Origin: Cloeon dipterum
Lineage: Eukaryota > Arthropoda > Insecta > Ephemeroptera > Baetidae
Reading direction: 5' to 3'
Length of the DNA stretch: 64,000 nt
NCBI RefSeq assembly: GCF_949628265.1
Contig: NC_088790.1
Span: forward strand, 8,064,545 to 8,128,544
Shown: piece by piece, positions 41,101 through 64,000 of the stretch
Layout of the letters: each line of letters begins with the position of its first letter
Position numbering within the stretch: the stretch's first letter is position 1
Position numbers and translations under genes: made by a program
The notes under the pieces: generated by a model
Told to the model about the DNA's origin: nothing
Database searches by the model: none
What the model saw: the letters and a program-made list of their open reading frames with translations, nothing else

Positions 41101-41591
41101 ACCATCTATATCGCCTTTGAATGCATCCTATACACAACATAAACCTCGCCAAAACGGTCTATATTGCCGGTGAATTTTTAATATTACTGATACTGTTTTT
41201 CAGATTCAGATTGTATTTTATTTTTGTTTAAGTCGATATTTACATTTGTGACTTATTAAAAACACGTCATAAATTTGTGAATAGTTGTTGATATTTGCTA
41301 AGTAACTTTTGAACCTTTTGGGTTTTAAAGGAGAAAAGAAGTTAAATTTCGAATTCCAAAACTCTTTTTCGATTAAGATGTACAATTAACAAAAAATAGG
41401 CCTATAAAATGTATTGGAATTGGAATTTAGTCGAATTTGTTCAATAAATTTTGTGTTTAACTCAAACTAAATACAAAGGAAAAATGAAGCATATACCTCC
41501 AAAGAGAGCCTTTGGACGTCTGTGACAAGCCACCAGGCCCAGGCCCAGCCTCCGACGATGGTCGACTTCTTCGTGGAGCCACAGCATCCTC
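32158..41591 (-). CDS. Flo2: Flotillin-2 (first coding exon not in view)
   Basis: Eight phase-consistent coding exons read leftwards: 41591-41497, 40870-40669, 35683-35451, 34493-34374, 34133-33919, 33455-33272, 33218-33072 and 32187-32158. Flotillin-2 is a palmitoylated scaffold on the inner face of plasma-membrane microdomains. It acts in endocytosis and in Wnt and Hedgehog spreading. The first seen exon holds GGCCGSTKKSTIVGGWAWAW, as in fly Flo2. The SPFH/PHB domain follows (VMTLNPMCEQVETAQGVPLT, REVAAPDVGRMGIEILSFTI), then the long Glu-Ala coiled-coil flotillin repeats (KAEAERMRMKAAVYKQYGE), and the end VLSKLPGAK. The canonical N-terminal exon (MGN-HTVGPNEA type, ending phase 1) is absent between 41592 and 64000. 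The record is therefore 5'-partial. Confidence 0.95.
38010..38074 (-). other. Candidate alternative first exon in the flotillin-2 intron
   Basis: Immediately downstream (minus-strand sense) of a GC-rich island, an ATG at 38074 opens a frame beginning MLANLEAVSLG and running through the hydrophobic stretch ITIAFTVFVV to Lys-Lys. It then meets a strong splice donor (AA|GTGAGT), with an in-frame stop just beyond. The exon ends in phase 2. That does not fit the next flotillin-2 exon (35683, which needs phase 1) but does fit the exon starting at 33455. It may be an alternative flotillin-2 start or part of another gene. Confidence 0.35.
38085..38460. promoter_or_regulatory. GC-rich island, candidate internal promoter
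   Basis: In an AT-rich intron this stretch is rich in CG dinucleotides and GAGCG/CTCGCT-type motifs. On the minus strand it lies directly before the candidate start exon at 38074. The composition suggests a promoter. No TATA box is evident. Confidence 0.4.
38315..38341. repeat. Purine tetranucleotide microsatellite
   Basis: About three gaaa units run into three ggaa units, an imperfect tetranucleotide microsatellite within the GC-rich island. Confidence 0.75.
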
Positions 41592-44500
41592 CTGTAACAC
41601 GAAGATAAGAAAAACGTCAAAAAACTTTTCCATAAAAATCCGATACAATCAGAGGACGGTCAGGTCTGTTGCCATTCTTAGCGAATTTCGAGACGTGCTC
41701 TCCTGCATGCGTCCGAGACGAAAGCAGGAAAAGCCGTGTGACACGTCGGTAAGCCGCGCGCCGCATTGAAATGCAAAAGGAAGAAGACGTTGCAACGGCG
41801 AAAGAAAGAGTGCATACACAATCTGCTGTGTCCTGAATTTGAAGATGGCCTATGTGACTGATATCGCGTCTCTTTCTCTCTCCCGCGAGCACACTCCGGC
41901 TCCTCTTTCTTTTGTGCTGACCTTCTTGAGGTTGCATGTAATAATAACTACATTCTTGGAGGGTAACGCCCTCTGCCCGTAAAACATCATTTTTTTGCGC
42001 CAGCAAAAACAGCGGCATACTTAGCGGAGCCGTTTGATCGAATTTTAAGACTGGAGGGATGTCTGATGAATGGGAAAGAAAAAATATAGCATTACAGGAA
42101 ATTTTTAAATTAAGAAAAGAATGAAGATTCATTGAGTCAAAAAGGTTTAGCTAAGAGTTTAAAAATAAGTTAAAATAAGTTTCAAAAAATTCTTAGCTAT
42201 ACTACCCCTTGAATAGGGGATAAAAATGGCAACAAGTTTTTGTACAGTTTTTGCAGGCAATTTTGACAATAAAAATTTTCAAGTTAATATAATCGAAGAG
42301 AATCGTGTGATTTGAATATATATGTAACTAATTTCAGTTTTCGATGTAAAAAATAAGTTTAAAATTTAGCACAAGAGAGCATAGATTTTAATGTTTAAAT
42401 AATTATTTCCAGGCTAAACATTTCATGAGAACAATTTTTGACTGCTTTTGAGAAAAATGAAACAACTATAATTAAGGACATTTTTTAGTCTAATGATTAA
42501 TCGCTATTAAGACAGATTTCTCTCGGCGGTGACAATTAGAAATCAGTGTCCTCCCGGAATCCGCTCGAGATTTCCCGCGCACCACATCCAAAGTCCTCCT
42601 CCGCAATCGAGAAGCGTCCCCTTTAAAAACCCGGGGGGTCGTGGAAGATTAACATGCACACTCGAAAGGCAGCGGAATGAAGAAACTTTGAAGAGAATAA
42701 CGAGCCGCCGCGCTGTCTTGTGTGCATACATTCGTGTTTTTTTTTTCTTTTATTTTCATTCATCAGCGAGGTTTCGAGTGTGTGTTCGGCGGGCTGGCCA
42801 ACGTGCGGCACAGAATGGAACAAGCTCCGCGGTCGCCTGCCTCTCCTGCCGAGGACTCACACCGTTACCTCTGCGAACCCGTTATCTGGCGCGGGCTTCC
42901 TCAGCTGGTAGGCCAGCAGTGCCACTCGAGCCTTGTATCTCAACGCAGCAGCCGCCGCCGCAAAGTGCAAATCCACCGCTGACTCACCTGCCGACGTGTG
43001 AAATACCGAAATTCGACTACGCCGGACCTGTTGTTCGCTGTCTGAGCCTGGTGAGTCGGCCGAAAGAGTTTTCGGAGATGAATTTATAAAGGAAGGGACG
43101 GCGATTTGCAAATCAATGAGTAATAATTGCCGGCTGGCTAAAAAGGATGATTGTCCCTACTGACGTCATTCGGGGAATTTGAATAGTCGAATTATTCAGC
43201 AGTCCTTTAGTGTTTACTTTCTTCTCAAACGGATACGCATTACATTCAAATCTTAAATAAAAAAATCGGTGTTGACTGTGTTTAATAGGCTTTAAATATT
43301 TAATTTTGAAATGGAACAATCCAAATCCTTTTAAAGGTGGACATTAATTTATTCTAAGATTTAACAAATTCCTAGCACTCCACTTAAGGAATGATCCGCT
43401 GCCGGCGAAGGATTCCCAACGGAAAACACACGATATACGCTGTAAAAACGTTGCTGCTAAGCGAACTCTGGGAATTAAGTTACAAATCCAGTTGTGTCTG
43501 CGTTTTGCACGACTTGCGCAATGTGTGTCACTTGGCACGAAAGGGTGCTTTGAACGATCCCACGTGGTCGCGATGATAATTAACGGAACTCATCCAGCCG
43601 CGCCGAGCCACTGCGTACGTGAATGAGGTATTAAACGCGTCGCGAAATAATCGCAAGTCACTCGCCGAAACGGAGAAATGTCAATATTAGCACCCTCTTG
43701 AAGCGCCGTTAATGTGCATGTTGGCAAACTTCTCAACGGTGAATGGCATCATCCGCTCCCGGGATTTTTGGGACGGAAAATTGGCCGCGGGCGCGCTAGG
43801 TTCAAGGGACGAGGAGCGTTGCCAATAAAGTTTCACCTTCTTGTCACTGATCGCTTTCAATTTCGCTTTGCTGACGAAACTGTTTTTCTGCCAAATTTAA
43901 TCTCCGTGCCGCAAGGTAAAATCTCAATTGAACATTTTCATATTTCATTTGCATAGTAAATATAAATGAAACGGGACTCCACCTCGATTTTTGATTGCAT
44001 AATTCCAGATTAACACCTAGCTAGGCGTGTTCACAATACCTAGCTACCCTTGGTCCAAATTCAGGATTAAATTAAAATTTCTAATCCGCCCCACTGACAT
44101 TGACAAGCAAAACAATGTACACACAATTATTAACACGCAAATCAAACATTTCGCTGGAATAATATGTCGTATTGAGCGGGAAAGAGGAAACAGAAATTGG
44201 TCGTTGCGTCACGAACCGTGACAATTTTGAATCGATATATCACATACGTGTGGCTGTACTTGCGACCAATGCATTAAAATCCGAGCACGTTCGCGCCTTT
44301 TCTGAATACAAATTTGGAGAGTGTAGTGGCGGGGATTGTCTTTCACCCTGGGTGAAATCTAGGCGCACTCAGGTCCCAAAGCGCCGACTGTCAGTTTGCC
44401 AGTTGCTTGCAGCGCATCACGGACAAAACACTAAGCCACTCGCAACTTTTTTTATCTCCTGCCATCAGGTATTATACAAGCAGAGTTTTTAGCATTGCAC

Positions 44501-44990
44501 TATAATACTGATTTTCTCAGATATCTAGTCTATTTCCGACTGTCATTTTTATAGTTAATTATTGAAACGCTCATGATGCAAAATCATTATTTTAATTAGC
44601 ATAATATTTCAAAACTTAAGTTATCTTTTGCTATCTTTGCCCTGCTGAGCCATGCGATTTTCTTGTTTGTCTTCCTCGATTTTGTGGCATTTATATATTT
44701 AAATAACGACATTTTATTTAAAAAAATCTAAATCGATGAGAATTTGTCATTCTTACATCACTGCAATTATTTGCGATTGCGCCCGAGCACATAAGCGTCC
44801 CTAATCAATTTCTCTTTTCCTTTTGGCACACCGTCCGATTGCTTTCCAATAGCCATTCCGATATCGCACACTTCACTTTCTCCTAATCAATTTTCGCATC
44901 TCGCCCTGCTTCCCGTTGCGTGCTCGAAATCGAGAATGTCATTCATTAATTGTGATCCGCATTTCGCAGACTGTGATGCTGTGAGATCCG
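41592..44990. other. Region between the last visible Flo2 exon and the first GMC gene
   Basis: This is 3.4 kb with no recognisable coding exon on either strand. A GC-rich stretch at 42540-43060 has long chance frames (up to 186 codons) of arginine- and serine-rich composition and no family resemblance. A short perfect palindrome (TTTCACCC-T-GGGTGAAA) is at 44341-44357. A splice acceptor at 44968-44969, 21 bases before the first GMC ATG, indicates a 5' UTR intron for that gene. Confidence 0.5.
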
Positions 44991-47900
44991 ATGGCGACCG
45001 CCGCAGCTGCAGCCGCCCTGCCCGCCCTTCTGTCGGGCGCCACGTCCGCGGTGACCACGGCTGGCCTGTGGTTCACACCCCTGCTCGTGGCCACCCTCGC
45101 CTATTACCACTACGACCTCATCGATCCCGAGTCGAGACCCATCGACGTCGAGGTTGTCAAACCGATTTATGACTTCATCGTGGTCGGCGCTGGCTCGGCC
45201 GGCGCCGTCGTCGCCAACAGGTGGGTCTAACATCCGCTGCAGGAAAATGTTTAAATGATTCGCGAGAGTGATTTTTTAACCTGGCAATCTCCGTTTAGCG
45301 TTTAGAACATATTATTTGCATTTCTTTGAGCTCAAATTAATCACAGTTTTGCATTCAACCGAATGACAAGACAAAAAACATTGAAAATTTTTAATTAATG
45401 GAAGTGGGTCTTCTAGCCAAAAACATGAAATTTCACTTCAAAATATTTAGAAACTAGACAAAAAATTAATATAATCAGGAGTGAAAGGATGGTCAAATCA
45501 AAGTAATGGAATTAAATATTTAAAATCAATAATTTTATTTTATTGATTTTATTTATGCATCGACTTTTACAAAAAAAAAACAGATTTTATGTTTTAAAAT
45601 AGGTCATTTACTTTTAAATGTTTAAGTAAATATATATTTTTTGTTTTTCTCCTAAATAACTTCCTAGAAATGATTGAAATTTATCTATTATTTTTTCATG
45701 CTGATCAGTGTCTTTTAAGTGATTCAGATACTTCGTAATTAAAACTAAATTATTTTAAATCTTTGTTGTGTGTAATTAAACCGAACTCTCAAATACGAGA
45801 GCAAGGTTTCTAATTTTTTATTCAATTTTTTTAGATTATCTGAAATTAATGACTGGCAAGTGCTACTGTTGGAGGCCGGGGGTGACGAGACAGAGATTTC
45901 GGATGTGCCGGTGCTTGCCGCATACCTGCAGCTAAGCCAGCTGGACTGGAAGTACAAGACGGAGCCGCAGCCAAACGCGTGCCTCGGCATGAAGAACCAG
46001 CGGTGCAACTGGCCCAGAGGCAAGGTGCTCGGCGGCTCGTCGGTGCTCAACTACATGCTCTACGTCAGGGGCAATCGGTACGACTACGACTCGTGGCGCG
46101 ACCTGGGCAACCCTGGCTGGGGCTACGACGACGTGCTGTACTACTTCAAGAAGTCTGAGGACAACCGCAATCCGTACCTGGCCAGGTCCAAATACCACTC
46201 GACCGGTGGCTACTTGACTGTGGAGGAAGCGCCCTGGCGCACGCCTCTCGCTACCGCCTTCGTGCAGGCCGGCGTCGAGATGGGATACGAAAACCGCGAC
46301 ATCAACGGCGAGTACCAGTCCGGATTCATGCTCGCCCAGGGCACCACCCGCAGGGGCGCCCGCTGCTCCACGGCCAAGGCCTTCCTCAGGCCCGCCAGAC
46401 TCAGGAAGAACCTCGACATAGCCATGCACGCTCAGGTGAGGTTTAACGGGAAACGTATATTGTTGAAAAGATGAATATTTTCTTTCTTAGAAATAATTTA
46501 GTCAGATTTTATAATCTAATTTTTAAACGTATCAGGCGACGCGCGTTCTTATCGACCCAAAGACGAAGCACGCTTATGGAGTGGAGTTCTTCCGCAACGG
46601 AAAGATGCACGTGGTGCGCGCCAAGAAGGAGGTGATCGTGTCCGGCGGCTCGGTCAACTCGCCGCAGCTGCTGATGCTGTCTGGCATCGGGCCTGCACAG
46701 GAGCTGATTAAGCACAAGATCCCGGTGGTCCAGGACCTGCCCGTCGGTGAGAACATGCAGGACCACGTGGGCCTGGGCGGCTTCACCTTCCTGATCAACC
46801 AGGAGGTCTCGCTGGTGCAGTCGCGCTACGAGAACGTGCCCGCCGTGCTGCAGTACGCCATGCTTGGCACCGGCCCGCTCACCGTCATGGGCGGCGTCGA
46901 GGGGCTCGCATTCATCAACACCAAGTACGCCAACAAGACCATCGACTTCCCCGACATTGAGTTCCATTTCATTTCCGGCTCGACCAATTCGGATGGAGGA
47001 AGGCAAATCCGCAAGGCGCACGGCATCACTGATGAGCTTTACGAAAAGGTGAGTTTGGCGTGTTTGACACGAGTCTTGAATCTTAAAACAACTTTTTGAA
47101 AAATAATTCAAGTTGTAAAGCAAAAGTCAATTAATTCGAATACTCGAATACTGCGTTTATTTTTTTACGTTTGATTGTCCTTTTTAGGGAAAGCATTTAA
47201 AGCGGCATGATCCATTTTGAGAAATGAAAATCAAATAGCTAAAAATCTTTAATTTTTTTTTTATCAATTAACTAGTATTCTGACTTGAGTATATTTTTCT
47301 TTGTGTAACTTTACTCATTTTTCTTATACCTTAATTTTCACGTTTTTCATTTATTTCTATAAAATATTGAAGTTCAGTTTTCTCTAGAATTTTAATGCTT
47401 CCTATTTTAACTTTAAATTGAGTGCATAGTTCAGAAATATGTGTTCATGTGAAAAATTTGAAACCACGATTTTCATGATATGAACTCCACGTTTTGCTCA
47501 TTGAATTTCAGGTGTACCGTCCAATCGACAACAGGGACGTGTGGTCGGTGCTGCCGGTATTGCTGCGGCCGCGATCGCGCGGTGTGATCAAGCTGCGGTC
47601 GCGCAACCCGTTCGACTACCCGCTCATCTACCCCAACTACCTGAGCGACCCGTTCGACCTGGCGACGCTGGTCGAGGGCGTCAAGTTCGGGCTGGCGATG
47701 AGCAAGACCAAGTCATTCCAGCGCTTCGGCAGCAAGCTGCATCAGATTCCGTTCCCGCAGTGCGTCAAGTCGACGCAGTTGTGGACGGACGAGTACTGGG
47801 CGTGCATGGTGCGCCACTACTCGGTAACCATCTACCACCCGGTGGCCACGTGCACTATGGGCCCTGCGTACGACAAGAAGGCCGTCGTCGACCCCGAGCT

Positions 47901-48042
47901 GCGGGTGCACGGCGTCACCGGGCTCAGGGTGATCGACGCCTCCATCATCCCCCTGCTGGTCAGCGGAAACACCAACGCGCCCGTCATCATGGTGGCAGAG
48001 AAGGGCTCCGACCTCATTAAGAAGACGTGGAATCGTCTCTGA
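44991..48042 (+). CDS. GMC oxidoreductase 1 (glucose dehydrogenase-like, FAD)
   Basis: Four coding exons (44991-45220, 45835-46435, 46536-47048, 47512-48042) give 624 residues. GMC enzymes oxidise sugars, alcohols or steroids using FAD. In insects they act in immunity, cuticle and ecdysteroid metabolism, but I cannot name the substrate here. The N terminus is Ala-rich with a membrane or signal segment ([16 protein letters not shown]). The FAD-binding GAGSAG is at 66-71, followed by LLLEAGGDE, the GMC signature 1 region [19 protein letters not shown], and signature 2 [20 protein letters not shown]. The catalytic His557 sits in [10 protein letters not shown], a departure from the usual GTCKMG. 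The end is [17 protein letters not shown]. Exons are strikingly GC-rich at third positions compared with the introns. It is the most 5' member of the array. Confidence 0.93.
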
Positions 48043-48594
48043 TTTCTGCGCTCTCTCCCTCACACCTCTACTGTTCTCATCCATTCCGACATAAAGACTG
48101 ATTCGTTTTATCGCGCATGAGTGGCTGACTACGAGTGAGTTGATAATATTTTATATAATGCAACACGTGGACTTGAAACCTACTATACATTATCATAAAA
48201 AGGGCTGGGAATTTTAAGCGGTGTAATATTGGAAATAACGACGACTTTCTTAGACCTTTTTGGGCTGGGGAGATAAAATAGTCAACTAAGCTGTATTGAA
48301 TTCCCAACCCTCGTTATAAATTTATACAGCATTTTAACGATTAAAGCAGAAGTTTGTACTTGTAAATAAAAACACGCTTTTTAATAAGACTGTTTAGAGT
48401 TTCATTTCTGCGCCTGTCTGCAGTTTATATTGTAGTATTAGTAAACTTTCAATGCTTTGTTTGCTTTCGTTCCGCGCAATAGAGGAAGCTAGTCGTGAAC
48501 TTGGCAATGGCGATAAATGCGACGAAATTTCAAAAGCACGGCTTCCAGATTCATTTGATATCAGGAATAGTCAGCAACAAGGGTTTTTTCGAGA
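48043..48594. other. Spacer between GMC1 and GMC2
   Basis: This holds the 3' UTR of GMC1, with a candidate AATAAA at 48365-48370, and the promoter and 5' UTR of GMC2. A frame from 48452 runs into GMC2 out of phase and is considered untranslated. Confidence 0.5.
48365..48370 (+). other. Candidate poly(A) signal of GMC1
   Basis: An AATAAA hexamer lies about 320 bases after the GMC1 stop and before the GMC2 start. Assignment is by position only. Confidence 0.4.
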
Positions 48595-51573
48595 ATGGAC
48601 TGCACCAACGTTTACAGGCGCAGTTTCCTGGTTTTTCACCGGCTGCTCAACACCTACTTGTCCGGTAAAAAGTGGATGGTATTCTTCTTCGTGGCCATAG
48701 TGAAGTACAGGCCCGATCTGTTCGCCATTCACGACCGGCCACGAGACACAACCATCTTTAAGAGTAATTACGACTTTGTCATCGTCGGCGGCGGCTCCGC
48801 GGGCTGCGTATTGGCAAACAGGCTGTCTGAGAACCCTGAGTGGCAGGTACTGCTGCTGGAGGCCGGAGGACCCGAGCCGACCCTCTCGGAAATCCCTGCC
48901 CTCGCGACCGCTCTGCAATATACCTGGTACGACTGGAAGTACCATCCTGAGCACACTGGCGACGCGTGCTTGGCTTACAAGGGTGAGAGGTAAAAGCAGA
49001 ATTAATCTAATAATTTAATTAGAAGCATTTTTAAATTTGCTAGTTATTAAAAAAGAGTTTGGGTTAAATTCGAACGGTGATTAAATTAAATTGAAAAATG
49101 TATCTAATTGAAATCATTTTTAAAATAGCTTTTTTTAAATATAATTAAAAAATAATTAACATAATTTGACAACACTTTAATTTGTTTTCAGATGTCGGTG
49201 GCCTCGTGGAAAGGGTCTGGGCGGCAGTTCCGTCCTGAACGCCATGCTCTACATAAGAGGCAACCGGCGCGACTACGACCTTTGGGCAGCCCAGGGCAAC
49301 CCTGGCTGGAGCTACGACGAGGTGCTACCCTACTTCCTCAAGTCGGAGGACATGCGGATCCACCGGTACAAAGACTCGCCTTTCCACAGGTCGGGAGGAG
49401 AGCTGACCATCGAACACTTTCGCTACCAGACGCCAATCGTGCCTGATTTGCTCGAAGCTGCCGTTGAGATGGGCTTCCCAATCAGGGACTGCAACGGTGC
49501 CAGGCAAACCGGCTTCACTAAGTCACACTGCACCCTGAGAAATGGTGTCAGGTGCAGTGCGGCCAAGGCATTTTTGAGGTTTCAAAACACTTCATTTAAA
49601 TCTATTTGTATAATTTAAAGTGATAAATTTTAGCTAGGCAGTGCTTTATATATTATTATTATTGTAAATTTGATGCACTTGTAAAAGTCTGAATTAACAT
49701 TTTCACTCCTCTATATTGCACCCTTTTGTTCTATATTACATTTTTTGTTAAGAAATTAAACACATTTCTTACATATAAAATTCCTATAAAATTTAAAATT
49801 GCCAAAATACCTTTATCTTTACAAAGGTATCAAATAAATTTTCCTCATTTTACAGACCAGCGCGGAACCGACCGAATTTTCACGTGAGCATGTTCTCGCA
49901 CGTGGAGAAAATAATCATGGAAAAACGTAGTGAGGGCACGGTGGCACGGGGTGTGGTTTTCAACAAAAGAGGCGTGCGGCACACGGTGTACGCTAACAAA
50001 GAGGTGATCATCTCAGCCGGCTCCATCAACACGCCTCAAATTCTGATGCTCTCGGGCATTGGCCCACGCGGGCACCTTCACTCGCTCGGGATAAAAGAGT
50101 TCAATGACCTGCCGGGGGTTGGGCAGAACCTGCAAGACCACGTGTCGACCGGCGGCAATCTCTTTCTGGTCGACAACCCCGTGACCTTTGTGATGCCCCG
50201 GCTCATCACTTACAAGGCGGTGGAGAGGTTTATTAAGCGGAACAGTGGCCCGTTGTGCACGTTTGCAGGTTCATAATTTATTTTTTTTGTTATGCAGATC
50301 TAGTTTAATGAACCAAATATAACGTATGATTTTATTCTTATACAGATGTATTTTCTGCGGTTAAATTTTAGATGACCTATTAAAATTTCAGGCTCTATAA
50401 AGTTTTTTCTAAGTCCTGCACTAATATAATTTGTGAAGCTGTAGTTTTGGTTCGGTAAAGCAAAAAGGTTTCTGCACATTCCAAATTTAAAAAATTTGTT
50501 TAATTATTGTATTTTAATTATTTTTTATTTTAAACCGTAGGCGCTGAAGTGATGGCATTCATAGACCTGAGGAAATCCGAACGGGCTATGAATGGAACCG
50601 AAATCGACGACGACTGGCCCAACATTCAGCTACTGATTGGCGGCTTCGGCGACAACGTTGACGGCGGCACATTGGGCATGAGGGCCAACGGCCTCTCATT
50701 CGATTACTACTCGGAAGTGTACGAGAAGGTGCTGTACAACGACGCCTTTGGCATCCACACCGTGCTCCTGAGGCCTTACAGCAAGGGCAACATCACGCTA
50801 AGGAGCGCCGACCCCTACGAACACCCTGTTATCCAGCACGGATACTTTACGGACCGAAGAGACGTGGAAACGCTCATTGCAGCCGCCAGGTATAATTAGA
50901 GACGTTGAGTAATATGAAAATAATTCATGGGCTCTTATAAAAGCTATAATTTTTGGGCCGTCAGCATTTCACTTTTAATGAAAAAAGAGTATCAAACGCC
51001 AGAGGCGCACCGTGATACGATTCAAACTATTACTCAATGGTGCTGCACCTATAAGACCGAGTGTTTAATTTTACTTAATATAATCTAAATTAAATTTTTG
51101 TAAAAAATTTTATTTTAGAACCATATGATACTGCACATTGGTAAATCTTTAAAAACCCTCAGGCACAATTTGTTTTAATCACTTCTAATTATTCTTCTTT
51201 TCTATCTTAATTCCTCAGGTTTGTGATGAAATACGCGACGCAGACGGCGGCGCTACGTCGGCACGGCGCGCGCTACAATCCGCACGTGTACCCGCGGTGC
51301 GGCGTTTTGGGTGTCAACTCGGACGCGTTTTGGGAGTGCGTGATCCGGCACTACAGCCAGACTATCTACCACCCGACATGCACCGCCAAGATGGGCCCGC
51401 TGACCGACCCGATGGCCGTGGTTGACCACGAGCTGCGTGTCCACGGTGTCGAGAAACTTAGGGTGATCGACGCCTCCATCATGCCCAACATCGTGTCGGG
51501 AAACACGAACGCACCTGTCATCATGATCGCAGAAAAGGGTGCCGATATGATCAAAGACTTTTGGAGTAAGTAA
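48595..51573 (+). CDS. GMC oxidoreductase 2 (glucose dehydrogenase-like, FAD)
   Basis: Five coding exons (48595-48989, 49192-49578, 49856-50268, 50541-50889, 51219-51573) give 632 residues. The N terminus has a possible membrane anchor ([14 protein letters not shown]) and lacks the cysteine pattern of the later members. Seen: the FAD motif [43 protein letters not shown] (signature 1), and [20 protein letters not shown] (signature 2). The catalytic His566 is in [10 protein letters not shown], and the ending is [18 protein letters not shown]. Intron positions differ from GMC1: here the first intron falls before CRWPRG, while in GMC1 it falls inside the FAD motif region (VVANR). The two genes are therefore not a recent duplicate pair. 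Substrate is unknown. Confidence 0.93.
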
Positions 51574-53270
51574 CTGGCAAGAACGCGAGTGGATGGAGAA
51601 TGTTAGAATGGTTTAGTAAGCAATGGTTTTAAGCATTAATAATAAGCAAAAATATGATTCAATTACAATTAGATAATAGTGATGCAATAATCTGACCACG
51701 ATTATTAAGAAGATCCTTTATGAATTACGCTTTTTATTGTTTGTGGTATAGTTATTAATGTTTAGACAATATTCAATCTGAAATAATTCTAATTTTAGTG
51801 CACAATTTTTAAAAATTTGTGAATGTATAATATTATGTAGTCAAGAAAAATCATGAACGGTTGGAAAATTATCTAATAACCAATGCTCATTAGCTACAAA
51901 TAATTATTTTGTAGCAAATATCTATTTGTAATTATCATGTAAGACAAAAATATTGAAATAAATTAAAAAGATTAAAAAAACGGTTATTTCTTTTTTTGTC
52001 AATATACATGTACTTGCAACATAAAATAAACATATAAACTCTCCTCCTGCAGCACAAAAATATGGATGGTGCCAGTTTCTCTTGCCATTTGCAAAAAGCA
52101 GGGATGCGTTTTAACTCGAAAACAGCAACCCCTCATCACTTGAATTGCTCATTCGAGCCAGCGGATGCGGGGTGGCGTTGAAAAAGAGAGTGCGGCGATC
52201 CATCCCGCAAATCGTGGACGGAATTGTTTTCAATGAGCACCCCTTATGCACTACCTGTCAGTGGTGTGAAAAGAGGGAAAATCAAAGAGCGCGTTTCCAC
52301 AGTTCCAAACCACCGAGATGGAAAATTTTCTTCTCTGAATTTATTTTCCTAAGGTCTCAGGTGTCTTTTCAGCTAAGTGATTCAGCGAAAATGTGGTTGG
52401 ACGTTGAGGTTGGAAAAATACTTCTGCGGTTCAGATAAGGCCACACCATATTTTTTTTCGAGCAATGCTTTTGGCCTTGGCTGGTGTATACAATTGTGAC
52501 TGAAGCGCGTTGAGGATTGCAGGTGCAAGCGAGTTTTTGCGACATTAATAACTGCCGCCAAATGTAAAATCGGTAAAATCAAAATATAACAAGGTTTTCG
52601 TCAAGGAACCAACCATTTGTAATATCCATTAATTTCTTAACGAAAATGCTTAAGAAATAACTATTGACTTTTTTACCATATGGAGATAAAACCAAACAAC
52701 TGATTTTCTTATCTTGATAGATAATAAGATCGATCAAAACTACCTCTAATAATAGAATTTACTTAGGTTTCTCTTAAAATTAAAATAAGTAAAAGCTAGA
52801 AAAATAATAAGGAAAAACAAAGCTCATCTACAGACTGGAGTGCATGAAAGAAGTTGACCTTCACGTATCTGTGGAATTCAAGTGGTATCATACAAAATAA
52901 TCGTACGGGGGAAGGAGTGGGTATGAATTTCGCAGCAGGCATCAACGGACTCAGTCTGCAAACAAGATTGCTCGGCACAGAAGATTGATAAGAGGACACG
53001 TCTGCGTTCACTAGCCAGCAAGTACTTAAATATTCTTCTAAAATTACACATTTATAATGAAACAGCATTGTTTTCATTTTAAATAAAACAGTTGCAAGAC
53101 ATAAATCACATTAATGCTCATGATTTTATCCAATGAGATCAGAGAAAAACAAGCTACTTGCATTAATAACTAATAGAGCTTACAAAAATTTTTGGAGGTG
53201 TTATAAACCTTGTTTGATACATAAAATATAAGTGATTATTTTTTGTTGGGATTTTTAGCTGCCTGAAACA
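51574..53270. other. Spacer between GMC2 and GMC3, with 5' UTR intron of GMC3
   Basis: This is 1.7 kb without a recognisable gene. A splice acceptor ends at 53258, twelve bases before the GMC3 ATG. A plausible donor (AGCAA|GTACTT) is at 53024, which would give a 235-nt 5' UTR intron. The GC-richer stretch 52050-52530 has only short frames. Confidence 0.5.
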
Positions 53271-55124
53271 ATGGAGGCGGCTTCCAACTGCATTCAGCAT
53301 CCGTGCCCGTACCCAAATGCCGGCGGGGCTGCAACTGTACTTTTCGCCGGCTTGGTGAACGCTGTGCTGAACGCCCAGTGCAATTTAGGCAACCCTGCTC
53401 AATACCCAAAGGATGTCGGAGGTGCATTATTGCTTCCAGAGTACGATTTCATTGTAATCGGCGCCGGCAGTGCCGGGTCTGTGGTGGCCAGTAGGCTGAC
53501 CGAGGAGGAAAAATGGAACGTTCTTCTGCTAGAGGCTGGTGACGACCCCGGAATGACCACAGACATACCGGCCCTGGCTGCTGGACTGCAGCACGGTAGA
53601 GAAGATTGGGAGCTGTGGGCCGAGGCCGACGGTAAGACCTGTCTGGGCATGCAAGGTGGCAAGTGTTATATTCCACGCGGTAAAGCTCTGGGTGGCTCTT
53701 CATCTATAAACGCATTGCTTTACGTCAGAGGAAACAAGCACGACTACGACGACTGGGAGAGGACAGGAAATACGGGATGGGGCTATGAGGAGGTGCTCAA
53801 GTACTTTAAAAAATCAGAGGACGGCGAGGTCGAGGACGAATTCCACGCCAAAGGCGGACTGCTCAGCGCCAAAAAGTATCCGACTGAGCAGATGAAAATC
53901 ATTCCACACTTCTTCCAGGCAGCCAAGGAAATGGGCTACGAAAAGGTTGACCTGAACAGCGCCACCCCCGTGGGCTATGACAGGTTGCCGTCGACTCAAA
54001 GGAACAGTGAAAGGTTAAACACAGCGAAAGCCTTTCTAACACCCGCCAAGGACAGAGACAACTTGCACGTGTCTAAAAAATCGCATGTCGGAAAACTGCG
54101 AATTGAAAACGGCAGGGTGATTGGTGTGGAATTTGAAAAAGACGGTAATTCTCATTTTGTGAAAGCTACAAAAGAGGTGATCTTGTCCGCCGGCTCGACT
54201 AACTCGCCGCAGATTCTGATGCTCTCTGGAATCGGACCCAAGGAGCACCTTGAAGAGCTCGGAATCCAGGTTCACGCAGATCTGCCAGTCGGGAAAAATC
54301 TACAAGACCACTTCATGTACTCGGGAGTCCATCTGACACTTAAAAACTTGAACGCTAAAATCCCGGATCCACAAGCAAAAATGCGGGATGACCTGTATCA
54401 GTACCTTTTTTATCGCAGAGGAGATTTGGCCTCGTTCGGCACAGGAGATTTCACGGGCTTCATCAACACGCCTCTGAACAAGGACAAAAGCAGACCGGAC
54501 ATCGAGATCCACCACAATTTGGTGCCCGAAGACGACCAGTCTAGTATGCCGATGTGGCTGCACTCGCAGGGGTACAACAAAGAAACTTATTTGCATTTTA
54601 AGCAAGTTAACAAAAAAGGCGCCACTCTGATGCTTATTATCACGTTGCTTCGTCCAAAAAGCGTTGGCGAGATTAAACTAAAATCTGCCAACATATCTGA
54701 CCGCCCGGTCATCCACGCCAACCTCCTAAACCACGAAGATGACCTCAAGACCATGATTGAAGCCATCAAGTACGCGAAAAAGTTCGCTGAGACGCCGACC
54801 ATGAAGGCGCTCGGTACAGAATTCGAGGACGACTACAAGCCGTGTAGCAACAAGCACGAAATCGGCAGTGACGAGTATTACGAGTGTTGTTTGCGCCACA
54901 TTGGAGCCACCCTATATCACCCCGTGGGCACATGCAAAATGGGGCCCGACTCCAGCGACTCGGTCGTTGACCCTGAGCTGAAGGTTCACGGAGTCAAAGG
55001 ACTGCGAGTGGTTGACGCGTCCATCATGCCGAAAATAGTGTCGGCGAACACTAACGCGGCTGCGATTATGATTGGCGAGAGGGGGGCTGATTTTGTTAAA
55101 AAAGACTGGGCACCCTCAGAGTAA
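53271..55124 (+). CDS. GMC oxidoreductase 3 (glucose dehydrogenase-like), single coding exon
   Basis: An uninterrupted frame gives 617 residues, a full-length GMC flavoenzyme. The N-terminal region (NCIQHPCPYPNAGGAA, then [16 protein letters not shown]) has the paired cysteines and hydrophobic stretch of the Drosophila Gld-type N terminus, suggesting secretion or membrane targeting. The FAD-binding GAGSAG is at 64-69. Signature 1 is [19 protein letters not shown] and signature 2 is [18 protein letters not shown]. The catalytic His550 lies in [10 protein letters not shown] and Asn595 in [15 protein letters not shown]. The last motif differs from the family's usual SGNTNAP (Gly to Ala and Pro to Ala). 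AATAAA overlaps the stop codon (55123-55128). An acceptor twelve bases before the ATG supports the start. It is a close paralogue of GMC4. Confidence 0.95.
   Translation: MEAASNCIQHPCPYPNAGGAATVLFAGLVNAVLNAQCNLGNPAQYPKDVGGALLLPEYDFIVIGAGSAGSVVASRLTEEEKWNVLLLEAGDDPGMTTDIPALAAGLQHGREDWELWAEADGKTCLGMQGGKCYIPRGKALGGSSSINALLYVRGNKHDYDDWERTGNTGWGYEEVLKYFKKSEDGEVEDEFHAKGGLLSAKKYPTEQMKIIPHFFQAAKEMGYEKVDLNSATPVGYDRLPSTQRNSERLNTAKAFLTPAKDRDNLHVSKKSHVGKLRIENGRVIGVEFEKDGNSHFVKATKEVILSAGSTNSPQILMLSGIGPKEHLEELGIQVHADLPVGKNLQDHFMYSGVHLTLKNLNAKIPDPQAKMRDDLYQYLFYRRGDLASFGTGDFTGFINTPLNKDKSRPDIEIHHNLVPEDDQSSMPMWLHSQGYNKETYLHFKQVNKKGATLMLIITLLRPKSVGEIKLKSANISDRPVIHANLLNHEDDLKTMIEAIKYAKKFAETPTMKALGTEFEDDYKPCSNKHEIGSDEYYECCLRHIGATLYHPVGTCKMGPDSSDSVVDPELKVHGVKGLRVVDASIMPKIVSANTNAAAIMIGERGADFVKKDWAPSE
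54851..54916 (+). repeat. 66-bp block identical between GMC3 and GMC4 (copy A)
   Basis: This segment, encoding the residues just before and up to the catalytic histidine, is identical base for base to 57190-57255 in GMC4, including all third codon positions. The flanking coding sequence differs at many synonymous sites. Confidence 0.85.
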
Positions 55125-55612
55125 TAAAATAATAAATAAAGAAAAAATAACAAATAAAATCTAAAATATGTTTTTCTTTAATTATCATACCATATGATTG
55201 TTTCATGCATAAGACGATCATAATTGTACTCATCATTTACAACTAATTTTAAACGGTAAAATAACTTGTAAAAACGTAGTGTGAATATTACAAGCTGTCA
55301 TTCTTTTTATTTTTTTAAAATATGGTAATGAACTTGACCAAGCTCACCTTCGTGATTGTCACGAAATATAATTATGCAAGTGACGTCTATGAGAATGAAT
55401 AGTGTATATGAGTGGGAGTAAATAATGCATTTTTAAGGCGGAACGATTTCGCTTCTTGAGCTAGCATCACAACTCTTTTCAACAGCTTCACGAGAGGTTA
55501 GGGCTGCTTTCGTTGGTCTGCAGGTAAAAACCATGATCTTCTTTTAAATAAATTATTGTGTATAACAAATTGTGTATTCTAATTGTGACTAATTTTCCAG
55601 CTCTTAAAAGCA
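55125..55612. other. Spacer between GMC3 and GMC4, with 5' UTR intron of GMC4
   Basis: The 488 bp contain the GMC3 3' end, the presumed GMC4 promoter and a non-coding first exon ending near 55523 (CTGCAG|GTAAAA). A 77-nt intron (55524-55600) follows. The acceptor lies exactly twelve bases before the ATG, the same offset as in GMC3. Confidence 0.5.
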
Positions 55613-57505
55613 ATGGATGCTCCAACTAACTGCATCCAGCACCAATGCTCAAACCTGTACGCAGGTGGGGCTGCAACAATACTTTTCACCGGTTTCGTGA
55701 ACGCAGTACTGAACGCCCAGTGCAATTTGGGCAACCCAGCGCAGTATCCGAAGGACGTCAGTGACGCACAACTGTTATCAGAGTACGACTTCATTGTGAT
55801 TGGCGCCGGCAGTGCCGGGTCGGTGGTGGCCAGCAGACTTTCCGAAGTGGAAAAATGGAACGTGCTGCTGCTGGAAGCGGGAGACGACCCTGGGGTTCTC
55901 ACGGAAATACCAGCACTGACGTTCAGCCTGCAGCACGGCCAAGAAGATTGGGAACTGTGGGCTGAGGCCGACGGAAAATCGTGTCTGGGCATGCAGAATG
56001 GTCAGTGTTACATACCACGCGGAAAAGCTCTTGGTGGATCGTCATCGATCAACGCGCTGTTTTATGTTAGGGGCAACAAGCATGACTTTGACGACTGGGA
56101 AAAAATGGGAAACAAAGATTGGGGCTACGAGCAAGTGCTGAAATATTTTAAAAAGTCCGAGGATGGCGAGGTGGAGGACGAATTTCACGCCACTGGAGGT
56201 TTACTCAGCGTGAAACAGTATCCAGGAGAGCAGTTGGAGATAATACCTCACTTTTTCCAGGCAGCAAAGGAAATGGGCTACGAGCAGGTTGACCTGAACA
56301 GCGCCACTCCCGTGGGCTACGACAGGGTGCCATCGACACATATAAATGGCGAAAGGCTTAACACAGCGAAAGCCTTTCTCGCTCCCGCCAAGGACAGAGA
56401 AAACTTGCACGTATCCAAGAAATCACATGTTACTAAACTGCGTATCAAAAACGGCAGAGTGGTCGGCGTAGAGTTTGAAAAGGCAGGCAGCTCTTACTTT
56501 GTAGCCGCCAGTAAAGAAGTTGTTTTGTCCGCCGGTACGATCCACTCTCCGCAGATATTGATGCTTTCAGGAATCGGACCAAACAAGCATCTAAAAAATT
56601 TTGGAATTGCTGTTCACGCCGACCTGCCAGTTGGGAAAAATCTGCAAGATCACTTCATGTATCAAGGCACCCATTTAATACTGAAGAACATTAATGCTAA
56701 AATAGACTTTCAAGCCAAGCTGCGGGATGACCTGTACCAATTCCTCTTCTATCGCAGAGGCGACTTGGCATCGCTAGGAACAAGTGATTTTACGGGATTT
56801 ATTAACACGCCTTTGAATGAAAACAAAAAGAGGCCGGACATCGAGATTCACCATGTGCTGGTGCCCCAAGACTACCACGTCATGACGCCCATGTGGCTGG
56901 ACTCACAGTGGTACAATAACGAGACTTACGAGCATTTCAAACATCTTAATAAAAAAGGCCCAACTCTGATGCTCCTGGCAACGCTGCTTCGCCCAAAAAG
57001 CGTTGGCGAAATCAAACTAAGGTCTACAAATGCGTTTGATCCCCCCATTATCAACGCAAACTTCTTGGACCACGAAGACGACGTCAAAACGATGATAGAA
57101 GCCATTAAATACATGAAGAAATTCGCCGAGACGCCGGCCATGCAGACACTTGGCACGGAATTCGAGGACGACTACAAGCCGTGCAGCCGCAAGCACGAAA
57201 TCGGCAGTGACGAGTATTACGAGTGTTGTTTGCGCCACATTGGAGCCACCCTATACCACCCTGTAGGGACGTGCAAAATGGGGCCTGACCCCAAAAATTC
57301 AGTCGTCGACCCTGAGCTGAAGGTGCGCGGAATTAAAGGGCTGCGAGTGGTCGACGCGTCCATTATGCCGAAAATCGTTTCGGCCAACACTAACGCGGCT
57401 GCGATTATGATTGGCGAGAGAGGAGCTGATTTTATTAAAAAAGACTGGCTTTGCCTCAAAATAGAAGAAAATATCACAGCTGGTATGCGAGTACATTTTT
57501 TGTAA
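55613..57505 (+). CDS. GMC oxidoreductase 4 (glucose dehydrogenase-like), single coding exon
   Basis: An uninterrupted frame gives 630 residues and is clearly the nearest relative of GMC3 over its whole length. GAGSAG is at 64-69, [10 protein letters not shown] follows, signature 1 is [19 protein letters not shown], and signature 2 is [18 protein letters not shown]. The catalytic His549 lies in [10 protein letters not shown], with the same altered [15 protein letters not shown] motif. The C terminus is about 14 residues longer than in GMC3: after IKKDW it continues LCLKIEEN and ends in RVHFL, so the ancestral stop has been lost or gained. Like its neighbours it should be an FAD-dependent alcohol or sugar dehydrogenase of unknown substrate. 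Start support: acceptor twelve bases upstream, and an N terminus aligned with GMC3. Confidence 0.95.
57190..57255 (+). repeat. 66-bp block identical between GMC3 and GMC4 (copy B)
   Basis: Partner of the GMC3 block at 54851-54916. The identity begins and ends abruptly at synonymous or replacement differences. Confidence 0.85.
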
Positions 57506-58378
57506 TCTTCACTTATATCGCAGTTTTTTACGAGCTTTCAATTTTTAATCAAACATAAAGAGTGATTTTCCTAAAAAGTCTAACTATTTTATAATATTCG
57601 CTTACGTATTTGAAAATTTCGATAATTACTTGCTTAGAGTTTTAAGCCCTCGACAGTACAGCTCTAATTATTTTTTAACGTATTCCTTTTCTATTTCCAT
57701 GTATTGGCGTAATAAAAATCCTGCAAATTTTTAAAATATGTAGTTTGTCTAGTCGCTTGCAATATGAGAACAGAACTATGTATCAAAATATAAGTATTAA
57801 ATCGCAGAGAGAAAATCAATCCGACTTTTGATTTTCATTCATTAATAATTTTAATAATAATTTATTTTGATCTAAATGAATATAACCAGTGTGTCTGTTT
57901 GTTTAAAAATTCAACAAATTTTATCTCTGATATCGTCAATAACTTTCTTAAAATGCTACATCATGTTGATATAATTCTTAAGGTTACAGGTCATGAGATA
58001 TAAAACTTGTTGGTTCGAGGGGCTCTGCCATTTTATCGTTGAGGAGCGAGCGGAGAAAATCGGCACTCTGGTATATATTTCACTTATCTTAATCGCATCT
58101 TTAGCCGCAACAGTTGTTTTGAACATACATAATTTTGTATTCTAGATTTTCCCCGTCAAAATATTTGTTTAATTTAATGTAAACCAACTTTTTTCTGTTA
58201 TAGTAAGGGCAAAAGAGCCCTTTATTTTATTTGCTATTAATTAAAATCTTCGATTTTTATTGGATTTTTTTTTAAATAGTGAAATAATTCTTTCTTGGGG
58301 ATAGGTGTTCGTTACTGGAATTTTTCTATCAGAAGAAGCAACTCTGCAGAAATTGATTGGCCTTACTTTTGCAGCATA
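57506..58378. other. Spacer between GMC4 and GMC5, with candidate 5' UTR intron
   Basis: This is 873 bp of AT-rich sequence. A GC-richer segment ending at 58070 with a donor (CTCTG|GTATAT), and an acceptor (ttttgcag) ending at 58374, four bases before the GMC5 ATG, suggest a non-coding first exon and a 304-nt intron. Confidence 0.45.
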
Positions 58379-60232
58379 ATGAACCTCGAGCAAGTGGCCT
58401 CAGTTGACTTGACGTGCACGAAAGGCAACGGCACAGCAGCCGTGCTCTTTGCCACACTCCTCAGCTCTCTGATCGGCAAACAATGCAGGCTAAATAACCC
58501 CAACCAGTATCCAACAGACACCCCAGCTGACCAATTCCTGCCCGAGTACGATTTTATCGTAATTGGGGCGGGCAGCGCGGGCGCCGCCGTTGCAGGAAGG
58601 CTAAGTGAGGCGGAAAATTGGAACGTGCTGCTACTGGAGGCCGGCGACAACCCCGGTCTGACGTCCGAGGTGCCGGTGCTCTTTTTCGAATCGCAGCACA
58701 CGCAGGACGACTGGGAGTTTTGGCCCGAGGCCGATGGCAAAAGCTGCCTGGGCATGGAGGGTGGTCGGTGCTACTGGCCGCGCGGGAAGGCGCTCGGCGG
58801 CACCTCTGTGCTCAACGCCATGATCTACGTAAGGGGCAACAAACACGACTACGACAACTGGGAGCGGATGGGAAACACTGGCTGGGGCTACGAGGAGGTG
58901 CTCAAGTACTTCAAAAAGTCGGAGAACGCAGATAAGTCAGATGAATTCCACGCGAAAGGCGGCCCTCTCGAGGCCAAAGTCTACAAGAACGGCGAGCCCA
59001 AGTTAATTTCTGACTTTTTCTACGACGCAGCCAAGGAACTTGGCTACGAGAAGATCGACGTCAACTCGGCAACCCCCGTCGGATACGGCACCGCACCGTC
59101 CACGCAAAAGGACAACGTCCGATTCAACACGGCTAAAGCTTTCCTCAGCCCTGCAAAGGATAGGCGGAATTTGCACATCTCTAAAAACTCGCACGTTACG
59201 AAATTGCGTTTCGACAAGAATGAGAATAGGATAACCGGCGTGGAGTTTGTCAAAGGCGGTGAGAAACAGTACGCAAAGGCCACCAAAGAGGTCGTCTTGT
59301 CAGCTGGAGCCATCGGTTCACCACACATCCTGTTGCTATCTGGCATCGGACCGCAGCAGCATTTGAATGAGATTGGCATCGACGTCATCAAGGATGCTCC
59401 TTTTGTCGGCAAGAATCTGCAAGACCACATTCTCTTCCTGGGAAACATTTTTGCATTGACAAACGTCAACCTGAAAACTGCAGATCCCGAGCAGTTCAAG
59501 GTGGAGGAATTTTTCAAGTACCTGATGCACAGGACCGGATACTACTCGACAATAGGCACCTACGATTTCATGTCATTCATCAACACGCCTCTCAACAAGG
59601 ACAACCCCCAGCACCCTGATATTCAGATTCACCACTTGATAGTAATGGCGAAAGACCCTCTAGTATGGCCTCTGTTCCTTAAAAATCAGGGCTACAATCA
59701 GGAAACGCGTGACTACCTACAGCAGCTGAACGAAAACCACACTCTCTTCAGCCCTGTCATCACGCTGTTGCGACCAGAGAGCGCAGGAGAAGTGAAACTA
59801 AAATCATCCAACCCTATCGAAAAACCTTTGATCTTCGCCAATTACTTTTCTCACGACGACGACGTACACCGAGTAATAGAAGCCATTAAGTATCACAAAC
59901 GCTTTGCCAAAACAGAGGCAATGGCGAAACTGGGCATTAAACGTGTGGACTATCTTCCCGCGTGCGCGAAATTCGACAAGGATTCGGACGAGTACCACGA
60001 GTGCGCACTCAGGCAAATCGGATCGACTATCTACCACCCCGTAGGCACCTGCAAAATGGGAGCCGATCCACTGATGTCCGTTGTGGATCCTGAGCTCAGG
60101 GTGCATGGCATCAAGGGGCTTAGGGTGGCCGATGCCTCCATCATGCCGAAAATCGTGTCAGGAAATACCAACGCGCCGTCCATCATGATAGGAGAGAGGG
60201 CCGCCGATTTTATTAAGAAGGCTTGGCTGTAG
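58379..60232 (+). CDS. GMC oxidoreductase 5 (glucose dehydrogenase-like), single coding exon
   Basis: The ATG at 58379 (MNLEQVASVDLTCTKG) gives 617 residues in one exon, the same length as GMC3. The frame is open further left but has no ATG there, and a splice acceptor ends four bases before this ATG, so the start is secure. Seen: the hydrophobic N-terminal segment AAVLFATLLSSLIGKQC, GAGSAG at 63-68, LLLEAGDNPG, signature 1 RGKALGGTSVLNAMIYVRG, and signature 2 SAGAIGSPHILLLSGIGP. The catalytic His553 is in [10 protein letters not shown] and Asn598 is in the canonical SGNTNAPSIMIGERAAD. It is more distant from GMC3 and GMC4 than they are from each other and keeps the ancestral active-site end motif. 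Substrate is unknown. Confidence 0.95.
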   Translation: MNLEQVASVDLTCTKGNGTAAVLFATLLSSLIGKQCRLNNPNQYPTDTPADQFLPEYDFIVIGAGSAGAAVAGRLSEAENWNVLLLEAGDNPGLTSEVPVLFFESQHTQDDWEFWPEADGKSCLGMEGGRCYWPRGKALGGTSVLNAMIYVRGNKHDYDNWERMGNTGWGYEEVLKYFKKSENADKSDEFHAKGGPLEAKVYKNGEPKLISDFFYDAAKELGYEKIDVNSATPVGYGTAPSTQKDNVRFNTAKAFLSPAKDRRNLHISKNSHVTKLRFDKNENRITGVEFVKGGEKQYAKATKEVVLSAGAIGSPHILLLSGIGPQQHLNEIGIDVIKDAPFVGKNLQDHILFLGNIFALTNVNLKTADPEQFKVEEFFKYLMHRTGYYSTIGTYDFMSFINTPLNKDNPQHPDIQIHHLIVMAKDPLVWPLFLKNQGYNQETRDYLQQLNENHTLFSPVITLLRPESAGEVKLKSSNPIEKPLIFANYFSHDDDVHRVIEAIKYHKRFAKTEAMAKLGIKRVDYLPACAKFDKDSDEYHECALRQIGSTIYHPVGTCKMGADPLMSVVDPELRVHGIKGLRVADASIMPKIVSGNTNAPSIMIGERAADFIKKAWL

Positions 60233-63200
60233 CATGGTAAAAAAGTGAATTGTGTTGCTTTTGTGAATGCTCATTAAATAGAAAACCAAAACGGGTGTAA
60301 ATTTTGAACAAATGATTTGTTTACTTGCATAAAAAACTGCGGACTCATTACTGTTGAGTTTTTGTGCGCACGATTCATTAGAATAATAAAATACGTATTT
60401 GCGCTCATTATATTAGAGTCAGCTGCAAACTTTCTCTGCGTGGTCGTATTGTGTGTGGAATCAGCGCCTTGAGAGGTAGGCTACACGCTCGCCCGTCAAG
60501 TAAGAGAGCAGTATAAGCACCACGGCGCAATGTTTCTAAATTCAACCGGCACCATTAGCTCAACCAACAATGAAAGGAAGGTACTTCATAAAAAATTCAT
60601 TCATTAATTGACGATAGGATATATTAATAAAAAATTAAATATTTTGGATTTGTCTCTTCAAACTAAACACTAAAAATCTTGAATTTCGGCATGTCTACAG
60701 CCAGATAAAAGTAAAAAAAGTCAAACATCCCTCTACTATTTCGTTTACAATATTTTTAGGTCTTATAAAATTGTCCATATTTGTATGGCTTTAGCAGGTA
60801 TTAATTGATTGATATATATGGTTTAACTGCCTAAAATTTGCATGTTCCGATTTTCCAATACTAACTGTTAACTAAAAAAAATTAAAATTAAATTTTGCAA
60901 GCTTAGGTCAGGTTTTTGAGTTCATTATAAGCCCAGCAACAAAATTAAATAATTAATTTATTTATGATGACTACATTTCACTTGAAAATGAACTGTCTCA
61001 ATAAACACGGGTGAAACGGCAAGGAACGTGATGCTTTTGAAACTGAGTCATAATAACAAACCACATTATGCAAAATGAGAATTCCCGAGCAGCAACTTTC
61101 GTTCCGATGAGTGACACGAATTGTAGCATATTGCACCTCCATTTATGCATGCAATGCAACTGACTGACTCTTTCACTCGGCCGCTGATCTCGCAACACAC
61201 GTGCAATTGCACCGGCAGGGAAATGCATTTCTCCTGCCTGCACGCTGCAACAGGTGAGAGAAATGGCTTTACAAAGTGCTCAATTGGATAACAACGAGAC
61301 GAAACTGCGCTCTTTACGTGATCCAAGCACGTAGACCATCTCTGAAGAAACACTTGCAAAAGAGCTTCTTTCTCTCTTCGGGCTGCAGAAAAAAGAGAGA
61401 AAGAGAAAAAAGATCAGCTTCCAATATTTGCTAGCGAGCAGGAAAGGCGTGACAATTGTCGGCACGCCGACAGCACTCTCTGTGCTTTTAACACCACGTG
61501 CATATTATTAGAATAATTCATGGGAGCGCCTCTGCCTAGAAACACTTATCCAGATAAATCAAAGCGTGCCACGATTGTATTGAATTAACCGACAAACAGG
61601 ACGGAGAAAAGTGAAACTTTGATTTGTTTATCTGCCTACCATATCGTTCAAGTTAAATAATTCAGGGCGGATTCATCCGTTTTAAGGCAAACATTTCGAC
61701 GACGATTCGTCACTCGCGTTTAAATAAAGAGGAATTTCCTAGCAAGTGGAATGCGATTAGTAACATTAACTTTCTACCAGCTGGCAAGACGCGGATTAAT
61801 TATGGGCAAGGAACAAACATCTGTCAGAGGACAAAAAATTAGATGCTCAACCTTTGCATGAATTGGAGAATAGAGATCGTAAAAAATTGCGGCCGCAAAA
61901 AAATTAATACTCAAGAAGCTGCAGAATCATCTTTGTTAGCTCATGTTGATTTTGTGATTTCAAAAGAATAAATTGTTGTTTGATAAGATTTTTATGCAGA
62001 TTGGAACCTAAATGACTGGTTAAAAGCGAGATATAACCTATGGAGAAAGGACATAACATAAAAATATCGTAAATCGATTACTGTTTGTCCTGAGAGATCT
62101 CCTTCACAGTAATCGTATCGACTGATGATTATAGCAAGTATTCATCTATTTAAAATACTAATTGTGATTAGAATGAGGATTAAATATTTAGAAAAAAGTC
62201 CTGAAATTTTAACTTCATTTTAAAAAAAAAATCTTTAAAAAATATCTGCCATGCATAAAAAATCCCACATTGTTGACATAGGCAACAATCAATTTGATTT
62301 CTCAACAGCGCGAGCAATTTTCTCACACCATAAACGTTTGCTATTTTGCATCGGCCATAAATCGAAAGAGAGGCCGCGAGGTACCACGCAATTGTCACTG
62401 CGGTAATAGCATTTGACTGCGTGAATGAATCTCGCGTCGAGAGAGTTTCCTTTATCGTCGATAAAAATGCCATTCGGACACTCCTATGCTTCAGCGCGGG
62501 CCTCACGCGGGCAATCGGTCGTTTGTTTTGCGCCCAGCGGAGAAATTCATTTTCCGATGCGAAAGTTTCTGCTAGCGGCCCCCGGCCGGCGTTTGTTCGT
62601 TCAATTTATTCGCGATTCGATCAGCGAAGGCTAAGCAAAGAAACGTGTGTTCATCCATTGTTCCGAGTGCAAAATGAGACCGGCCTTTGATTGGAATTAG
62701 AACAAAATTTCGCTGATTAATTGTGCGCCAACACGCATTGCAAATAATGCAGTGGACAGATTTCTAAACCAGAAATGAATAAGAAGCGGAAGAAAATTGT
62801 GACAATTGTGATTTGTGTATGGCTAAAAGTGCCACCGGGCAATCAGAACGAGACAAAAAATATGAATGTTAAGGAGTGAAAAAAATTTAATTTAAGATTT
62901 TGAAATTTTAATAGAAATCAGAGAAGGGGTAAAAAGAAAAGAGAAAATTAGTTATTGCATTTTAATTAAATGATTTCTTCCTAGACTAGAAGTACAAGAT
63001 TTTTTCCAAAAAAAGGCTCATAATATTTTTAGTAAAAATAATCTTGATTAATATTTGTTTTCAGTCAATTTAATATGTTCTATTATTGTATTTCGCTGAG
63101 GGCCGTTTCATTCTCACGAATAGATCAAGAGTTTACTTAGGAATTTGTGTGTCAACAAGCAGCAATCCAGAAATCCGAGACCATTCAATATTCCCTGTTA

Positions 63201-64000
63201 AAAGAGGGCCGTTTAAACGCATGTTTGTGGAGGCGACTGTCGGCTTTGACAAAGGATTACGTTTGACCCGTTTGACTGAGGGTTTTGGATTGGAAAGTAG
63301 AACCCACGCGTGCATGAGAGGACTGCACTGTTTTCCAGGAGACAAAAAGATGCATTTTCGCCATAGGCACGAAAAAACTTTGTCAGAAAAACGACATAGT
63401 GGGAGGCCGAGGACGAAAGTAAGAGTCGGAGCAATTAAGTGCTGTGCATCTCCATCGGAAAGCTGAAAAGTGCATCTCATCATTCACGTAATCGACGCTG
63501 AAAGTGAAAACTGCGAGCGTAATTGTTGCGCTGAGCGATGACTTTTTGCTCTGAGGAATTCTGAAATGCATTGTTGTTGCATTGCAGCACGTGAGCGACT
63601 ATTTTTTCTATCTCCCTGACGCATGTTGTCGACGTTTTCAATACATAATATTGTACAAAGAAACCGAGACGGCGGCTTGCAACACTTTCCGGCTGGACAT
63701 TTCATTAGAGCCGCGAGAGACCTGGTGCACGTAGGCACGCAGCAGCTGCTAAATACCTTTGCACTCGAGATTGGTTAAATTCGCACTTGACGGATTTCAT
63801 TCAAGATGCATTGGCACGCCGATTGGCGCAATAATCGCACTTCCTGATCGTTTGTGTTGTGCTTTAGATATTATTGCAACAACTTTCCAATGTTAGATCC
63901 ACTTGTTAAAAGGCGTTAAATATTCTTCCAGAGAAAATCGATTGTGGTTTTGAGTTTATTATCCCTGGTTGAAGCTTTATATTTGAAAGTGAAATGTGAG
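60233..64000. other. Distal 3.8 kb without recognised genes
   Basis: Apart from the GMC5 3' UTR at its left edge, I see only short chance frames. Moderately GC-rich patches (61060-61500, 62400-62660, 63080-63480) alternate with AT-rich DNA. No GMC motif, flotillin-2 N-terminal exon or RNA gene was found. It may be intronic or regulatory DNA of flotillin-2. Confidence 0.5.
61367..61404. repeat. Perfect 12-bp inverted repeat (pyrimidine/purine hairpin)
   Basis: TCTTTCTCTCTT (61367-61378) is followed after a 14-nt loop by its exact reverse complement AAGAGAGAAAGA (61393-61404). The arms are all-pyrimidine and all-purine. Function is unknown. Confidence 0.7.

Follow-up and report, generated by a model that had tools for sequence, protein, structure and literature searches.

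The question raised by this locus is whether the membrane-raft gene flotillin-2 (Flo-2), the first visible coding exon of which begins mid-codon, resumes on the far side of the five GMC oxidoreductase genes lying upstream of it on the opposite strand, in which case these genes would be nested within one of its introns. In the window analysed, a stretch of 64,000 bases, the most probable answer (probability of about 0.93) is that the end of the conserved insect Flo-2/GMC nest adjoining the Flo-2 body is present, with exon 1 located beyond position 64000. The Flo-2/GMC arrangement itself is already known and has been described in several insects.

Flotillin-2 gene body and its incomplete start

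Eight coding exons of Flo-2 were identified on the minus strand, from 41591 to 32979, and their joined translation, 404 residues long, ends in a stop codon. All seven junctions are of the GT-AG type; the junctions of Flo-2, like those of the GMC genes, were placed manually from the sequence and then verified by translation.

41592-64000, minus strand: large Flo-2 intron, the part within the window, with the acceptor at its left end and no exon 1 found inside
41497-41591, minus strand: Flo-2 exon 2, first visible coding exon, residues 17 on, phase-1 start, aligned to 9l3g_a
40669-40870, minus strand: Flo-2 exon 3, GT-AG junctions
35451-35683, minus strand: Flo-2 exon 4, joined and translated model
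34374-34493, minus strand: Flo-2 exon 5, joined and translated model
33919-34133, minus strand: Flo-2 exon 6, joined and translated model
33272-33455, minus strand: Flo-2 exon 7, joined and translated model
33072-33218, minus strand: Flo-2 exon 8, joined and translated model
32979-32996, minus strand: Flo-2 exon 9, last coding exon, with the stop codon, joined and translated model

The product resembles Flotillin-2 rather than Flotillin-1: the best match among solved structures was a Flotillin-2 (PDB chain 9l3g_a, 474 bits, compared with 286.7 bits for the best Flotillin-1) for a query lacking exon 5, exon 9 and the final part of exon 8. Chain 9l3g_a is taken here to be the mammalian protein. 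Pfam detected Band_7 (73 bits, over the cut-off) and a Flot match of 23.1 bits, under the cut-off of 27. Searches of the protein against collections of genome contigs and viral contigs returned 48 and 12 pattern matches, respectively, and no relatives by tblastn.

Exon 2 is bounded by an acceptor (TTACAG followed by GA) and a donor (GAG followed by GTATAT), starting in phase 1 with GA completing a Gly codon, and its first residue is the alignment partner of residue 17 of 9l3g_a. The phase and the alignment together indicate that the visible gene lacks the first 16 residues plus one base. Upstream of exon 2, a stop is reached in frame before any ATG, so that a simple extension of the exon is impossible. 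These observations confirm the proposal of the earlier note that the exon at 41591-41497 begins mid-codon and needs an upstream partner. The intron preceding it measures at least 22,409 bases, and the seven introns within the Flo-2 body range from 53 to 4985 bases.

Between exons 3 and 4, a short ATG frame was also observed on the minus strand (38074-38007), encoding the membrane-anchor-like MLANLEAVSLGITIAFTVFVVK and followed by a GTGAGT donor in phase 2; the region beside it (38080-38450) is CpG-rich, with 58% GC compared with 40.5% for the window. As its phase mismatches the exon 4 acceptor, which needs one base, the frame may open a different transcript as its first exon, or may have arisen by chance. 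Pieces of neighbouring genes in the window include an RRP12-like HEAT piece on the plus strand (7979-8812; Pfam 21.2 bits, under the cut-off of 27) and, on the minus strand, a double-stranded RNA binding motif (13638-14033), a zinc-ribbon PP-loop protein, presumably CTU1-like (17983-18603), and a piece of a major facilitator transporter (21665-22240). The ORFs at 15480-15869 and 26657-27112, both outside the large intron, had no Pfam match; a tRNA scan of the window gave no hit, nor did Rfam at gathering scores.

The GMC oxidoreductase array

Five GMC genes were found between 44991 and 60232, all of them on the plus strand, antisense to Flo-2, and with GMC_oxred_N and GMC_oxred_C well over the Pfam cut-offs in each protein. 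Their number and strand are those given by the earlier note, and its boundary at 44990 fits the position of the first GMC start codon (44991), which lies 3,399 bases from exon 2, the latter being to its left on the minus strand.

44991-48042, plus strand: GMC1, exons 44991-45220, 45835-46435, 46536-47048 and 47512-48042; 624 aa; GMC_oxred_N 6e-55, GMC_oxred_C 1.7e-38
48595-51573, plus strand: GMC2, exons 48595-48989, 49192-49578, 49856-50268, 50541-50889 and 51219-51573; 632 aa; GMC_oxred_N 2.6e-51, GMC_oxred_C 6.8e-37
53271-55124, plus strand: GMC3, intronless, 617 aa, 80.8% identical to GMC4
55613-57505, plus strand: GMC4, intronless, 630 aa
58379-60232, plus strand: GMC5, intronless, 617 aa

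The five proteins split into two identity groups, GMC1/GMC2 (46.0%) and GMC3/4/5 (57.3-80.8% mutually), with 39.2-41.5% between groups. Seven families of direct repeats of at least 60 bases were detected in the interval, all falling on coding regions of GMC paralogues, and GMC1-5 form a tandemly duplicated array. When compared with solved sequences, GMC5 had 62 distinct matches at E up to 1e-10, the best being alcohol oxidase 8rpf_A (9e-84). The three introns of GMC1 and the four of GMC2 occupy seven distinct alignment positions, none of them common, and beside this pair stand the three neighbouring intronless genes (53271-60232). The latter could be the result of intron loss, or of a retrocopy followed by tandem duplication.

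The array extends toward the right end of the window, where no additional GMC piece was found to the right of 60274 with GMC3, GMC4 and GMC5 as queries (E up to 1); pieces on the minus strand, with E of 0.25 and 0.63, were dismissed as chance. Of the ten stop-to-stop ORFs reaching 100 aa or more in 41592-44990 and 60236-64000, eight were run through Pfam, and none of the eight matched; the two left out overlap the first GMC1 exon, and the ORFs between GMC genes also fell outside this run. To the left of GMC1, the Flo-2 intron holds two GC-rich stretches, at 42540-43050 (55% GC, CpG observed/expected 1.16) and 43380-43860 (50% GC, CpG observed/expected 1.43), which could hold promoters. The ORF at 42511-43086 had no Pfam match.

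Search for the first coding exon

Exact searches of the minus strand of 41592-64000 in three frames for GPNEA, MGN, MGN.H, TVGPN, HTVG, VGPN and NEAL[IV] gave no match, in line with the absence of GPNEA reported previously from inspection by eye; the N-terminal motif was also searched with mismatches on both strands. The sole GPNEA match with one mismatch on the minus strand of the interval, VPNEA (54442-54428), is antisense in GMC3. In a BLOSUM62 scan of the same strand and interval with the 17-residue Flo-2 N-terminus, the best score was 20 (6/17 identical), compared with self-scores of 88 and 93 for the two N-termini used as queries and 82 for one aligned with the other. The scan was controlled by running 28 segments of the solved Flotillin-2, each 17 residues long, against the Flo-2 exons: 21 were recovered exactly (scores 47-86), and the remaining seven, all crossing splice junctions, scored 29-62. 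Every control exceeded its own best background in the GMC interval, with the lowest control (29) under the highest background (31). An unbroken exon 1 in 41592-64000 should thus have been detected, and its presence there was rejected by the motif search, the scan and the short patterns. An exon 1 split by a further intron could drop to the background of the scan and escape it, since the weakest control lies under the top background score, but the short patterns argue against it.

The strongest rival is an alternative Flo-2 first exon with a different N-terminus inside 41592-64000, most plausibly in 41592-44990, which would leave the GMC genes merely upstream in a head-to-head arrangement. Alternative Flo-2 transcripts occur in Drosophila (PMC3578937), an unusual phase-1 exon is possible on sequence alone, and the stretch at 42540-43050 offers a possible promoter. 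However, the minus strand of the interval showed no N-terminal match, the stop upstream of exon 2 precedes any in-frame ATG, and of the six structures with an ATG, 15 codons and one base before a correctly placed GT, that is, of canonical length, none begins with Met-Gly. In the four insects studied in PMC1891103, the canonical exon is also found beyond the cluster, on its far side, and an extra promoter would leave the nesting of the canonical Flo-2 form intact. This explanation is considered very improbable. The earlier note had named an N-terminal coding exon in 41592-44990 as the finding that would speak against nesting, and the search of that stretch found none.

Slightly less probable still is a misassembled window or a rearranged locus with exon 1 elsewhere or lost, for which the view confined to 64 kb and the cluster of Cnaphalocrocis medinalis, reported as not nested (PMC12734113), could be cited, but the order and strands match the published nest, the window has no N, and the frames of Flo-2 exons 2-9 and of all five GMC genes are open.

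Published nests and proposed arrangement

Nesting with exon 1 beyond 64000, which is the preferred reading, can be compared with the arrangement described by Iida et al. (2007; PMC1891103), which consists of a GMC array antisense in a homologous Flo-2 intron of four insects, among them D. melanogaster, A. gambiae and A. mellifera. In these insects, the 16-residue Flo-2 exon is located 3' of the GMC cluster, at the far side. The same text gives 10-12 GMC genes per species, a D. melanogaster intron exceeding 83.2 kb, and an order from the 5' end of alpha, gamma and beta copies, then delta, epsilon, zeta and theta, with one fly beta gene between alpha and gamma. The present locus resembles that nest as described there in its tandem duplications, all five genes having a single orientation (plus), as almost all genes of that nest do, in the antisense position of the array, in the Flo-2 body adjoining the array 5' end, and in the Flo-2 split after residue 16. 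It differs in showing five genes and 22.4 kb of intron, and in its three adjacent intronless copies. No 16-residue exon was seen 3' of the array within 41592-64000, as expected if it is located further right. By analogy with the published order, GMC1 and GMC2 and, after them, the three similar copies would correspond to a putative alpha gene, a putative gamma gene and a putative beta expansion.

The honeybee nest (PMC1847477) is likewise a single large Flo-2 intron (90 kb) with antisense GMC genes, both intron-bearing and intronless (three of the ten apparently intronless); the whole ten-gene array is present there, whereas one end of the array is present here. Silkworm is cited as having the nested arrangement in a 2025 article (PMC12734113), which in the moth C. 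medinalis reports a 12-gene GMC cluster on the same chromosome as Flotillin-2 and not found within it. Nesting is thus not universal as reported, and our guess is that an overlooked 16-residue exon could lie behind that observation. The insect TipE cluster (PMC3240667), which its authors themselves compare with the GMC nest, is another conserved insect family with nested genes, but its genes and host are unrelated to Flo-2 and GMC. The agreement of strands, order, phase, 16-residue gap and GMC identity with the published nest supports the nesting proposed in the earlier note as very probably right, and its mention of an insect GMC cluster within a Flo-2 intron is borne out by PMC1891103 and PMC1847477.

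Under the nested arrangement, Flo-2 would be transcribed from right to left, with its promoter and the 16-residue first coding exon beyond 64000, the transcript being spliced to 41591 across an intron longer than 22 kb; further GMC genes would lie in between. The five GMC flavoenzyme genes, each of which has start and stop codons of its own, would be transcribed from left to right within this intron, most likely each from its own promoter, while Flo-2 transcription, starting beyond the array, would run through it on the other strand, so that both strands of the locus would be transcribed. The array would have grown by tandem duplication. The nest would most likely have been kept since a break in the intron would destroy Flo-2 and since the array may share control elements. 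Both ideas were put forward in the 2006-2007 papers. The options set out in PMC1891103 and, for the honeybee, PMC1847477 are the same, namely an accidental insertion without a way out or linked control, and in both papers the choice between genes trapped and genes held by shared control is left open.

Among the matches listed in a literature search of titles and abstract starts, which covered few subscription journals, no nest was described outside Holometabola. It is possible, though doubtful, that the nest predates the species of its description, this locus then representing an insect or other arthropod lineage outside Holometabola in which three intronless copies arose in a local burst close to the Flo-2 body; the insect origin of the window is itself judged from the arrangement. 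A single window does not settle the mechanism, while an additional genome with the same Flo-2 split helps to date the nest.
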